This document shows positions 3,846 through 22,956 of a stretch of 22,956 nt of DNA, piece by piece. Position 1 is the stretch's first letter. Every line of letters starts with the position of its first letter. A program made the translations under genes and the position numbers. The notes beneath the pieces were generated by a model. It was given only the letters and a program-made list of their open reading frames with translations, did no database searches and had not been told where the DNA came from. Source of the stretch: a virus; the IMG/VR virus record IMGVR_UViG_3300005735_000028, positions 1 to 22,956 of that record. One strand, given 5' to 3'.

Positions 3846-4178
3846 ATGAAAACCTCACAATTAAAAACTTTAGTTAAAGAAGCTGTAAAAGAAGCGATCC
3901 AAGAGGAGTTGCGTGAAATTTTATTAGAAGCGGTAAAATCACCAAAAGTGGTTACTGAATCTAAAGATACTTACGCTCAACCTCATATTGAAAATCCTAA
4001 AAAACTAACAGCTGAAGAACGTAAAAATATGTTTTCGGGTATTTTAGGTGAAATGCAACAAGGAGGCGCAGCTACTACAGCTTATAAGGGAACATTTAAT
4101 CCTCAAGGTGTAATGCCTGGTGGTGATTTACCCTCAGGTGAAGTAGGAATGGATCAAATAATGAACATGATTAAATAA
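3846..4178 (+). CDS. Small helical protein ahead of gp25, function unknown
   Basis: A 110-residue protein in two parts. Residues 1-33 form a regular amphipathic, charged helix (MKTSQLKTLVKEAVKEAIQE followed by ELREILLEAVKS). The rest is flexible and Gly/Met/Gln-rich, with GGAATTAYKGTFNPQGVMPG and a C-terminus MDQIMNMIK. The N-terminal helix, including LLE followed by Ala at residues 26-29, resembles the propeptides of T4 internal head proteins cut by prohead protease (L/I-x-E before a small residue), but such short matches arise easily in helical sequence. Position immediately before gp25 argues equally for a baseplate role. The start is taken at the first ATG because the next in-frame Met is residue 62. 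It overlaps gp25 through TAATG. Confidence 0.75.
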   Translation: MKTSQLKTLVKEAVKEAIQEELREILLEAVKSPKVVTESKDTYAQPHIENPKKLTAEERKNMFSGILGEMQQGGAATTAYKGTFNPQGVMPGGDLPSGEVGMDQIMNMIK

Positions 4179-18100: not shown

Positions 18101-18553
18101 ATGTGGTTATATAAAAACGAAGAGATTACTTCTCTAGAGGACTTTCCTCCTCAAACTTTTGGATTTATCTATAGGGTTTATCATGAACCTACAGGTAAAG
18201 CGTATATTGGAAAAAAAGTATTACAATTTAATCGTAAAGCTAAATTATCTAAAAAGGATTTAGCATTATATGAAGGTGTTAAAGGTCGTAAACCATCATA
18301 TAAACGTGTTACTAAAGAATCCGATTGGAAAACATATTATGGCTCAAACAAAGCATTACTTGAGTTATTAAAAACAGAACCAAAAGAAAACTTTAAACGC
18401 ACCATTATTGCTTTAGCTAATAATAAAAAACACCTTACTTATCTAGAAACAAAATATCTTTTTGTTTATGAGGTTTTAGAAAAACCTGAAGAATTCTTTA
18501 ACGATAACATTTTAGGAAAGTTTTTTACACGAGACTTGGATATTAATCTATAG
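18101..18553 (+). CDS. GIY-YIG family endonuclease
   Basis: A 150-residue protein with the GIY-YIG nuclease signature: FIYRV at residues 22-26 and KAYIGKK at 33-39, a basic segment (KVLQFNRKAKLSKKDLALYE), and a later YLETKYLF with the likely catalytic Glu near residue 117. SDWKTYYGSNKALLELLKTE is typical of the T4-like phage version of this domain. In T4 the Seg enzymes are homing endonucleases of this class. Here the protein sits between tail and replication genes and has no separate DNA-binding region, so it may equally be a resident conserved nuclease involved in recombination or host DNA degradation. Arginine codons are mainly CGT/CGC, like the downstream replication genes and unlike the AGA-rich tail genes. 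Confidence 0.82.
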   Translation: MWLYKNEEITSLEDFPPQTFGFIYRVYHEPTGKAYIGKKVLQFNRKAKLSKKDLALYEGVKGRKPSYKRVTKESDWKTYYGSNKALLELLKTEPKENFKRTIIALANNKKHLTYLETKYLFVYEVLEKPEEFFNDNILGKFFTRDLDINL

Positions 18554-20293: not shown

Positions 20294-21091
20294 ATGATTT
20301 CATTATTACAACTTTTAAATGAAGTAGAGAGAAAACCAAAAGCTATTATATTAGCAGGAGCCCCTGGAGCAGGTAAAGGATATGTTTTAAAAGGTTTAGA
20401 TTTAAATGGTTTAAAAATAATGAATATTGATAATTCATTTATTAATAAACTTAAACAAGCTAATGTATCTTTAGATCTTAAAAACTCAACTCCCGAAGAA
20501 AGAAGTGAAGCCGCAAAAGCTATGGCCGCAGCTAATAAAGAATTTAAAGGTGAATTACAAAATGTAATTGGTGGTAAACAATCCTTTATACTAGATGGTA
20601 CAGCAGCTTCATATAAAAAGACAGCAGAATTAAAACAACAGTTAGAGGAAGCAGGATATAAAGTAATGATGCTTTATGTTTATACTGATCTACAACGCTC
20701 ATTAAGCCAAAACCAAGACAGATATAGAAAATCAGATGGTGAAGATAGAAGTTTAGCACCTGCGATTGTAATGCGTACTTGGAAAAGTGTAACTGAAAAT
20801 TTACCTAAATATGCTGATTTATTTGGAAACAATTTCGTTGCTGTAGCTAATACATTAGATGATAGAATGCAAGATATAGATAAAATTATAGATAAATATC
20901 TTAAACCATTTACCCCTAAAAACACAAAACCAAAAACACCAGCTCAACAAAAGAAATCAGATGAGCGAAATGCACAAGATAAAAAAGAAATTCAAGCTAT
21001 GTTAAGTGATGATTTTGTATATGATGTGATTGAATATACAATGTCTAAGGAAGAAGCTCAAATGCGTATATCCAAATTTTTAAATTCATGA
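20294..21091 (+). CDS. P-loop kinase (zeta-toxin-like) with a short propeptide-like N-terminus
   Basis: A 265-residue P-loop protein. Walker A GAPGAGKG is at residues 22-29, an Asp-containing strand FILDGTA near 98-104 serves as Walker B, and an Arg-rich loop (RYRKSDGEDRSLAP, 143-156) looks like a substrate or lid segment. The hydrophobic strand KVMMLYVYTDLQRSLSQNQD fits the zeta-toxin/gluconate-kinase group of small-molecule kinases; the substrate is unknown. The C-terminal 50 residues are a Lys/Pro/Gln-rich linker followed by a small helical domain. The first ten residues MISLLQLLNE precede the kinase core and end in LNE, which resembles a prohead-protease site. The stop overlaps the next gene by ATGA, so kinase and long modular protein are co-translated. 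It is not proven to be a toxin. Confidence 0.8.
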   Translation: MISLLQLLNEVERKPKAIILAGAPGAGKGYVLKGLDLNGLKIMNIDNSFINKLKQANVSLDLKNSTPEERSEAAKAMAAANKEFKGELQNVIGGKQSFILDGTAASYKKTAELKQQLEEAGYKVMMLYVYTDLQRSLSQNQDRYRKSDGEDRSLAPAIVMRTWKSVTENLPKYADLFGNNFVAVANTLDDRMQDIDKIIDKYLKPFTPKNTKPKTPAQQKKSDERNAQDKKEIQAMLSDDFVYDVIEYTMSKEEAQMRISKFLNS

Positions 21092-22956
21092 GTTTAGTTC
21101 ACGAATTAATTAAAGAGCTTATAGATGATAAGCAAGTGACCGCTGTATATGGAGGGGGGTTTAAACCTCCTATTTATGGTCATTTTTCTATTGTAGAAAA
21201 AGCATTAAAAGATTTTCCGGAAATTGATAAATTTATAATTTATGTTGGAGGGGGAGTCAGAGATGGTATTTCCCAAGATGAATCTTTATTAGTTTGGAAC
21301 ATTTATAAAAAATATTTAGGAGATAAAATTGAAATTATTCCTTCTAAAAGTCCAATAGGTGATGTAATTCGTTATGGAAAAAATAATTCTGATGAAATAA
21401 CATATTTTATTATTGGTGGTAGAGAAGGTAGAGAAGATGATGCTATGGATATTGCTTCTCGAACTAAAGGAGTAGAAGAAAAATACCCTAATATGAAAGT
21501 TAAAGTATTAACCACCACTAATCCAGAAATGAGTGGTACTAATGCTAGAAAAGCTCTTAAAGTATCTGAAGAAGAATTTATTAAATACCTTCCACCTCAA
21601 TTAACAGATGAGGAAAAAATAGAAGTATATAATTTAGTATCTCCTGTTGTAAAAGAAGGAGACACATATGAAAAAATGGCTGCTAAAGGTAAAAAAGCAG
21701 GTAGTTTAAAACAGGGTACAGTTAGAAAAAGATTAGGTATACCTAAGGATAAAAAAATTCCATTATCATTAATTAATAAAGAAATTTCTCGTTTAAAGAA
21801 AATGGATAAAGATCCTGATAAAAAAGGAACTCAATTAGGTGATAAAAATCAAAAATATTATAAAGCACTACAGTTAGCTAAAACATTGAAAACTACAACT
21901 AATGTAAATGAAAACGCTTCATATTCTAAAGACATTGACATTATAGAAAAATGTGCTCAATTAACTAATTACATGCGTGATAAAGGGTATCAAATTGACC
22001 CATTACCATCAATAGAATTTGTTAATGGTGATACTGAAAACGCTAGAGATTTTTTTGGCAAAACAGCATATTACGATCCAAACGAACAAAAAATTGTTTT
22101 ATATACTGAAGGACGTCATCCAAAAGATATTGTTCGTTCATTTGCTCATGAAATGATTCACCATATCCAAAATGTAGAGGGTAGACTAGGACCTATTACA
22201 ACACAAAACACTCAGGAAGACGACCATTTAAATGATATTGAAGCTGAAGCTAACCTAAAGGGCACAATGACTTTTAGAAATTGGACTGATAGTTTAAATG
22301 AAGCAATTGTAGGCGATAAAATTGAATGCGATGATTGTGGTTGGAGTTGGAAAATTATAGATAGTGGGGATGATTTATTTATGTGTCATAAATGTGGACA
22401 TGATAATACTCCATTAAATGAAGATGGTAAAAAAACATCTGAAAAAAATATGGATGATTATAAAAAAGATAATAATCCTAAAGGTGTAAAAGATCCATTT
22501 GGTATAAATGCTTATGCTCGTGAATTAGCTCAAGGTTTAGAAGAAGAATTAGAAGAAGGTCGTAAAAAGAAAAAAGATCCTAAAAAAGGTACAGGTAAAA
22601 AACCAGAAGGATCTGGCCGTAGATTATACACAGATGAAGATCCAAAAGATACAGTAGGCATTTCATTCAAAACCAAGGAAGATATAGTTGATACTTTAAA
22701 TAAAAAATCATTTAAAGCTAAATCTCATGCTCGTCAATCTCAGATTATTAATTTAATTTATCAAAGAGTTAGAGCTGCTTACGGTAGAGCAAAAGATCCT
22801 GAAACTAAAGCAAGATTAAAACGTGGTTTAGATTATATTGAAAAACGTAAAGAAGCATCTAAGAAAAAAACACAACGTTTAAAAGCACAAAAAGAATCAT
22901 TAAATGAAGGTAGATACGATACATTAGCAAATAAATTATCATCAATTGCATTTGAA
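21088..22956 (+). CDS. Long modular protein: nucleotidyltransferase, metallopeptidase, zinc ribbon and basic modules (3' truncated)
   Basis: The frame stays open for 623 codons to the last base, so the gene continues past the window. Modules in order are as follows. Residues 18-160 resemble a cytidylyltransferase-fold nucleotidyltransferase (VYGGGFKPPIYGHF, later FIIGGREGRE and MSGTNARKAL). Residues 190-272 are a basic module (KQGTVRKRLGIPKDKKIPLS). Residues 276-405 hold a zinc metallopeptidase with HEMIH at 354-358 and a probable third ligand in IEAEA near 386. Residues 406-445 are a four-cysteine zinc ribbon (C414, C417, C433, C436). Residues 490-600 are a very basic segment (GTGKKPEGSGRRLYTDEDP), then SLNEGRYD opens a further module. 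L-x-E tripeptides sit at module borders (ends 275, 405, 445, 490, 607). I infer a virion-packaged polyprotein; the enzyme activities are untested. The first His of the HxGH motif is Ile here. Confidence 0.8.
   Translation, partial: MSLVHELIKELIDDKQVTAVYGGGFKPPIYGHFSIVEKALKDFPEIDKFIIYVGGGVRDGISQDESLLVWNIYKKYLGDKIEIIPSKSPIGDVIRYGKNNSDEITYFIIGGREGREDDAMDIASRTKGVEEKYPNMKVKVLTTTNPEMSGTNARKALKVSEEEFIKYLPPQLTDEEKIEVYNLVSPVVKEGDTYEKMAAKGKKAGSLKQGTVRKRLGIPKDKKIPLSLINKEISRLKKMDKDPDKKGTQLGDKNQKYYKALQLAKTLKTTTNVNENASYSKDIDIIEKCAQLTNYMRDKGYQIDPLPSIEFVNGDTENARDFFGKTAYYDPNEQKIVLYTEGRHPKDIVRSFAHEMIHHIQNVEGRLGPITTQNTQEDDHLNDIEAEANLKGTMTFRNWTDSLNEAIVGDKIECDDCGWSWKIIDSGDDLFMCHKCGHDNTPLNEDGKKTSEKNMDDYKKDNNPKGVKDPFGINAYARELAQGLEEELEEGRKKKKDPKKGTGKKPEGSGRRLYTDEDPKDTVGISFKTKEDIVDTLNKKSFKAKSHARQSQIINLIYQRVRAAYGRAKDPETKARLKRGLDYIEKRKEASKKKTQRLKAQKESLNEGRYDTLANKLSSIAFE

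Follow-up and report, generated by a model that had tools for sequence, protein, structure and literature searches.

A modular polyprotein of T4-like phages with prohead-protease-type motifs at its module borders

The window analyzed here, a virus record of 22,956 bases, contains T4-like tail and baseplate genes together with genes for a DnaG-type primase, an exonuclease, and a P-loop kinase, and its last open reading frame (ORF; 21088-22956) encodes a polyprotein of 623 residues that is still open at the contig end. The primase, exonuclease, kinase, and polyprotein genes stand in the same order in G001, a 164-kb relative in which an S77 prohead protease, a scaffold, and a gp23-like capsid gene are encoded about 24 kb downstream of the polyprotein; the contig of the window stops short of the position expected for the protease gene. 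The kinase (zeta-toxin/AAA_33-like; 20294-21091; Pfam PF06414, 1.3e-17), a putative companion cargo gene, starts with the leader MISLLQLLNE, for which a cut is predicted after residue 10 (nucleotides 20315-20323). This gene and all features of the polyprotein described below lie on the + strand.

The polyprotein can be divided into 7 modules with [LIVM]-x-E tripeptides at their borders (a slash marks the predicted cut). Module 1 (21088-21657) opens with a helical, capsid-targeting-like leader, MSLVHELIKE (21088-21117; LxE at residues 6 and 10), and is a HIGH-superfamily nucleotidyltransferase (NMNAT/PPAT fold) with the motif GGFKPPxxGH, assigned from AlphaFold, Foldseek, and a profile match. 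The site VKE/G (residues 188-190; 21649-21657) separates it from module 2 (B1; 21658-21912), which is basic (GDTYEKMAAKGKKAG, pI 10.1) and is also found as a separate, short-leadered gene (L216). Beyond VNE/N (273-275; 21904-21912) lies module 3 (ZIN1; 21913-22302), a zincin-like metallopeptidase with HEMIH at residues 354-358, and beyond LNE/A (403-405; 22294-22302) module 4 (ZNR; 22303-22422), a CxxC-CxxC zinc ribbon recognized by sequence. Module 5 (LINK; 22423-22557), an acidic spacer, is bounded by LNE/D (443-445; 22414-22422) and LEE/G (488-490; 22549-22557), the latter accompanied by a second LEE at 484-486; its conserved helix, KDPFGxNxYARELAxGLEE, is inferred to act as an internal targeting-like helix ahead of a cut. 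Module 6 (B2; 22558-22908) is basic and helical (KKKKDPKKGTGKKPEGSGRRLYTDEDP, pI 10.3) and also occurs as single genes with MIKLxxILxE leaders, whereas the segment behind LNE/G (605-607; 22900-22908) is only the start of module 7 (ZIN2; 22909-22956), a GRYD-type second metallopeptidase stopped by the contig end. It matches GRYDTLTTKLSSIAFE in the L003 relative, where the module goes on with HELEH.

A preliminary description had proposed that tripeptides ending at residues 275, 405, 445, 490, and 607 mark the borders of a polyprotein cut by a prohead protease. All 5 are present in the ORF, and 3 are indeed followed by Ala or Gly, but the list overlooked a sixth border site, at residue 190, where the nucleotidyltransferase gives way to B1. 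The accompanying division into modules stands overall, with the N-terminal leader to be added, and the "next module" placed after residue 607 can now be named as the start of a second HExxH metallopeptidase.

Searches with the whole polyprotein returned no family above cut-off in Pfam or PHROGs, matches far below cut-off in NCBIfam, and no PDB sequence with phmmer. B1 had no match in isolates and B2 only weak pelagiphage matches, whereas ZIN1 showed only weak Pfam similarity, to metallopeptidase DUF6782; an assignment of ZIN1 to effector peptidases (M91, PipA) was rejected, the Pfam matches being below cut-off and read as the common HExxH helix only. In an AlphaFold model built on a 25-sequence alignment (mean pLDDT 69), the nucleotidyltransferase is ordered (residues 21-180, pLDDT about 89 or more) and the zincin is fairly confident, and sites 190, 275, 405, 445, 486, and 490 fall in segments with pLDDT below 50. 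Site 607 lies in a helix predicted with moderate confidence (about 56). The [LIVM]xE tripeptides inside modules are placed differently, those at residues 37, 131, and 161 being in blocks above 90 and that at 287 at about 75. Foldseek matched module 1 to PPAT/NadD (E 1e-5, TMt up to 0.81), and its fold fits phosphopantetheine and nicotinate-mononucleotide adenylyltransferases alike; GGFKPPxxGH is invariant in the nucleotidyltransferase, for which sequence-model matches were mostly below cut-off. No significant fold match was obtained with Foldseek for B2, which is predicted to be helical. The activities of the modules within the polyprotein, including NMN as substrate of the nucleotidyltransferase, are inferred.

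An initial scan of viral contigs yielded 289 relatives, 80 of which were kept; after added scans for the kinase and for individual modules, the set comprised 345 loci. The group is a large one, made up of mostly marine T4-like phages. Among 125 complete polyproteins we counted 52 module orders: the nucleotidyltransferase comes first in these genes and NT5C, where present, last, and zincins, zinc ribbons, basic modules, and others swap places in between. In the Flavobacterium phage immuto and in L078, other domains stand before the nucleotidyltransferase. The polyprotein of immuto 2-6A is KNV73_gp088, with gp087-gp076 as neighbors, and the S77 protease of this phage is KNV73_gp070. Additional modules include, in the polyprotein L023:3071-6832, a complete Fe/Mn superoxide dismutase (PF02777, 4.5e-29) and a plastocyanin/azurin-type cupredoxin (PF00127, 6.7e-14). 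ADP-ribosyltransferases are suggested by matches below cut-off (ART-PolyVal, HYD1-type; for L024 against Pfam ART-PolyVal, 1.2e-4), and ParB-like and Pol-beta-like segments were seen by eye.

The polyprotein of the window contains 13 [LIVM]xE tripeptides, so the motif alone is unremarkable in a single sequence, and the claim that it marks borders is carried by the comparison with relatives. The border sites 190, 275, 405, 445, 490, and 607 are kept in 88% (56/64), 94% (58/62), 84% (46/55), 73% (33/45), 70% (16/23), and 83% (5/6) of aligned relatives, respectively, the last figure resting on only 6 sequences, whereas the interior sites 37, 131, 161, and 287 are kept in 2% to 22% and the leader sites 6 and 10 in 31% to 41%. 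In the 25-sequence alignment, E275 is as invariant as the zinc-binding HExxH (H354, E355, and H358). When module breakpoints were taken from local alignments, without use of the motif, 61% of 479 clusters lay within 5 residues of [LIV]xE, compared with 16% after circular shifts (z = 28). Because the relatives are not independent, such z-values overstate certainty, and the safer argument is the agreement across unrelated modules and many neighbor pairs: [LIV]-x-E is contained in 459 of 466 distinct linkers, representing 38 neighbor pairs. The motif is found at 94% to 100% of the starts of NMNAT, B1, ZIN1, ZNR (66 of 66 distinct starts), B2, and ZIN2 (46 of 47), at 70% of NT5C starts and 61% of LINK starts, but in only 0% to 26% of module middles. 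The homologue comparison thus yielded the pattern that the preliminary description had predicted, L-x-E kept at borders while modules are shuffled, and not the outcome that would have refuted it.

The composition of the borders is equally specific. Breakpoints show no excess of [LIV]xD, xK, or xQ, and when all 20 residues are compared at P1, Glu alone stands out (3.4-fold; the next reaches 1.4). At the clean borders, the starts of B1, ZNR, and ZIN2, Glu occupies P1 in 155 of 157 cases and Asp in none, P2 is free, P1' is often Gly, Asn, or Ala, and P3 is Leu, Val, or Ile encoded by many codons; both GAA and GAG are used for the P1 Glu. Since P3 alternates among Leu, Ile, and Val through different codons, selection acts on the protein, and the border pattern, as far as sequences can tell, is that of a protease specificity and not of a DNA repeat. 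The same motif is avoided inside modules, where LxE occurs at 0.44 and LNE at 0.19 of expectation (LxD, 1.37), whereas the other genes of G001 have 1.10 and 1.53, respectively. LxE, unlike LxD, is depleted within all 7 folded module families, most strongly in B1 (0.00), B2 (0.02), and ZIN1 (0.21) and least, only mildly, in the nucleotidyltransferase (0.76).

Leaders ending in the same motif are widespread in the group. All 131 distinct N-termini of kinase relatives have [LIVM]xE before the domain, mostly as MISLxxLLxE/, and in 164 of 188 cases the kinase gene precedes the polyprotein by no more than 3 kb, usually as its immediate neighbor. Of the 189 polyproteins whose start could be read, 142 carry a leader that includes a site, 44 are leaderless, and 3 have a leader lacking a site. 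When B2, B1, and NT5C are encoded as separate genes, they carry leaders of the MIKLxxILxE or MYKLTDLYKQLKE type. L078 is a natural fusion, with the kinase joined to the upstream end of the polyprotein and a segment resembling a leader enclosed between 2 sites, INE/LTQFLVDSILNE/. A recurrent, leader-like internal segment, DPFGLNQFAREIAE, may serve the leaderless copies; however, 11 of 34 complete leaderless genes lack this LINK motif, and how such copies would enter the head is unclear, which counts against the interpretation we favor.

Between the kinase and terminase genes of G001, leaders are found on 17 of 29 cargo and head genes, against 27 of 175 elsewhere (p = 2e-6), a value that is only indicative because the region was picked after inspection. 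Short leadered genes (MxxFDxxKYLAE/G-type) are clustered between the kinase and terminase genes at G001:96197-114126 (L097, L098) and L082:13889-22964, and the cluster is a probable head-cargo island. The cargo region also encodes a second, unlike long protein with several LNE/-type sites (L082:18039-20564, which is immuto gp079, and G001:103087-105231); a zinc-ribbon-like segment follows one of these sites, and the protein is possibly a second cargo polyprotein.

An S77 (gp21-like) prohead protease, the presence of which in the same genome the preliminary description had made a point to check, was found in 10 of 12 relatives' records, the 2 without it being fragments of 64-66 kb, and in 3 further, pelagic T4-like phages. 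The protease has LxE near both termini, the scaffold and major capsid protein carry the same LxE motif, and the capsid protein keeps ILE/NQAKQ(L/I)VxE/ ahead of its mature part. T4 gp21 cleaves after L/I-x-E (PMC9026906), and this defining feature of gp21/S77 substrates is met at the cut positions predicted here. In the leader of T4 IPIII, Asp at position 10 blocks processing and leaves targeting intact (PMC9026906), a block that the absence of Asp at P1 in the polyproteins fits. These motifs strongly suggest, on the level of sequence and without experiment, that the polyprotein belongs among the gp21 substrates. As for virions, the closest evidence comes from a remote homologue. The Pelagibacter phage HTVC008M encodes a leadered kinase and then a nucleotidyltransferase protein with relatives in cyanophages, and module 1 of the window aligns with the cyanophage GC190 family in hhalign (96.6% probability, E 5e-10, 168 columns). 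The member in Synechococcus phage S-SM1, SSM1_190 (cluster T4-GC190), has the leader MKKFSAFLNE/A, and GC190 is among the proteins detected in purified S-SM1 virions (PMC3037559). These data concern packaging of the module 1 homologue, not of the polyprotein itself; no virion proteomics for immuto or any polyprotein-bearing phage was found in the literature searched, and no cut has been seen.

We consider it highly probable that the locus encodes a cargo polyprotein that is packaged in the head of a T4-like phage and divided at its module borders by the prohead protease; ejection along with the DNA is probable, although cleavage, packaging of the polyprotein, and ejection are all inferred. The chain combines several unrelated effector-type domains, as polyvalent proteins do, and the main competing explanation takes it for an ordinary polyvalent protein that enters both head and host as a single chain, with LxE no more than a habitual linker ending. 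Known polyvalent proteins, among them the N4 virion RNA polymerase, are packaged uncut (PMC5512222). A plain linker would allow Asp at P1 and would have no need of Leu, Ile, or Val at P3, and it leaves unexplained both the avoidance of the motif inside modules and its recurrence in leaders, capsid protein, scaffold, and protease, so we regard this explanation as unlikely. Cleavage without the prohead protease is also conceivable: metallopeptidase autoprocessing was proposed for polyvalent proteins by Iyer et al. (PMC5512222), and ZIN1 is present in most complete copies and could cut the chain itself. The same site, however, marks leadered proteins that have no zincin as well as the capsid, scaffold, and protease genes, and it corresponds to the documented specificity of gp21, leaving self-cutting with little to recommend it.

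Two further readings dispense with cleavage or with the virion. Modules do break at LxE sites, as they would if the tripeptides were recombination junctions, that is, short repeated DNA easing module swaps; yet with 3 or 4 amino acids at P3 from many codons, a free P2, and both GAA and GAG in use, DNA identity is not kept, and we give this reading hardly any weight. Codon use, the choice of Glu over Asp at P1, and the interior avoidance were what led us to set aside the recombination-site and mere-linker readings. It is similarly very improbable that the product stays out of the virion and works in the cytosol of the infected cell, as a multi-enzyme of NAD and nucleotide metabolism: two of the module types, the nucleotidyltransferase and NT5C, are metabolic enzymes, and NAD salvage genes are known in phages (PMC9503650), but such an enzyme would not account for the leaders, for the position amid clustered leadered genes ahead of the terminase and head genes, or for the cyanophage homologue in virions.

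Under the head-cargo explanation, the polyprotein would be made late in infection and brought into the prohead core by its leader or a leader-like helix, and the gp21-like (S77) protease would then cut after [LIV]-x-E at each module border. Inside the head, this would free the nucleotidyltransferase, zincin metallopeptidases, zinc ribbon, and basic peptides and, in relatives, also a 5'(3')-deoxyribonucleotidase, ADP-ribosyltransferase, superoxide dismutase, or cupredoxin, and these pieces would probably be ejected together with the DNA, forming an enzyme kit for a first strike. Since each module has sites on either side, it would be an interchangeable cassette, usable within a polyprotein or alone behind its own cleavable leader. 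The head-cargo reading of the preliminary description is in this sense supported by the conserved border sites, with the corrections given above, whereas cleavage and injection remain unshown. Functions of the freed pieces are likewise inferred: the NAD-type nucleotidyltransferase may oppose NAD-depleting defense, as has been suggested for NAD-synthesis enzymes of phages (PMC9503650), the zincins may act on host proteins, and B1 and B2 may serve as DNA-binding modules in the head. The P-loop kinase next to the polyprotein invites comparison with the NadR kinase.

Known systems share parts of this arrangement. T4 IPI-III and Alt have, like the polyprotein, a leader that is about 10 residues long and closes with LxE, an S77 protease, and a fate as late head cargo, and the putative ADP-ribosyltransferases of relatives recall Alt; however, each gives one mature product through one or two terminal cuts (PMC9026906), whereas the polyprotein has several mature modules, predicted internal cuts, and shuffling between phages. 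The polyvalent proteins that Iyer et al. (2017, PMC5512222) described from phages and conjugative elements are multi-domain proteins of early infection, as is inferred here, and zincin, putative ART, ParB-like, and nucleotidyltransferase domains are common to both groups. Their processing was ascribed to the zincin (PMC5512222), whereas the borders of the polyprotein match the prohead protease and its single modules carry cleavable leaders. The T4-GC190 cytidylyltransferase and its relatives in HTVC008M, Melnitz, and P-TIM68 are homologous to the nucleotidyltransferase with only distant sequence similarity; the cyanophage members have a CTS-like leader with LxE and the HTVC008M member adjoins a kinase gene, but the downstream segments are different and no zincin, B1, or B2 modules were seen in that group. 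The phiKZ-like phages and SPN3US also mature many internal proteins by prohead-protease cuts after x-E; in SPN3US, the cuts other than protease self-cleavage remove N-terminal propeptides, and no multi-product enzyme polyprotein was reported in that study (PMC10052503). By analogy, the polyprotein may be described as T4 internal proteins strung together, with the makeup of a polyvalent protein. A literature search for phage polyproteins processed by a prohead protease brought up nothing but the survey of polyvalent proteins, and a shuffled polyprotein with prohead-protease sites at every border appears to be undescribed in the literature searched.

With less assurance, we favor the broader view that T4-like phages use a general plug-in code for head loading, in which a domain of any kind, provided that it has [LIV]-x-E on both sides and stands behind a leader or leader-like helix, is packaged, released by the prohead protease, and delivered. 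Single cargo enzymes (superoxide dismutase, cupredoxin, ADP-ribosyltransferase, NAD-type nucleotidyltransferase, metallopeptidases) would then be traded as cassettes across Bacteroidota phages, pelagiphages, and cyanophages. If the head-cargo explanation holds, a simple sequence rule (a leader and [LIV]xE/small residue at borders) would reveal hidden head cargo of T4-like phages from genomes, and the question of which proteins are injected, and what they do as infection begins, could be turned into testable lists; there would be a tailed-phage polyprotein processed to several mature enzymes, and ready parts for packaging proteins into T4-type capsids. A short CWDxxK...NCIPK/NCVPK segment, which follows LxE in the L057 polyprotein (residues 347-413), has a similar counterpart in L355:2501-4453 (Melnitz), a protein of a Methylophilales phage, hinting at cassette exchange between distant T4-like phages.

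The phage of the window likely infects Bacteroidota, an inference from 2 matches: immuto is the only isolate in which tblastn found a nucleotidyltransferase along with a zincin module (35.9% identity, with 64% of the query aligned), and the contig of one relative was binned with a Winogradskyella genome. Elsewhere in the window, positions 498-1199 show weak similarity to sigma-70 region 2 and may encode a late sigma factor, and a small protein encoded among the baseplate genes (3846-4178; homologue at G001:78299-78643) starts with MKTSQLKTLVKEAVKEAIQEELREILLEA and has a leader-like N-terminus. Positions 18101-18553 encode a SegE-like GIY-YIG endonuclease (PF19835, 5.8e-28), and the label "NAD synthetase" on its PHROG and on the corresponding immuto gene is probably a misannotation.
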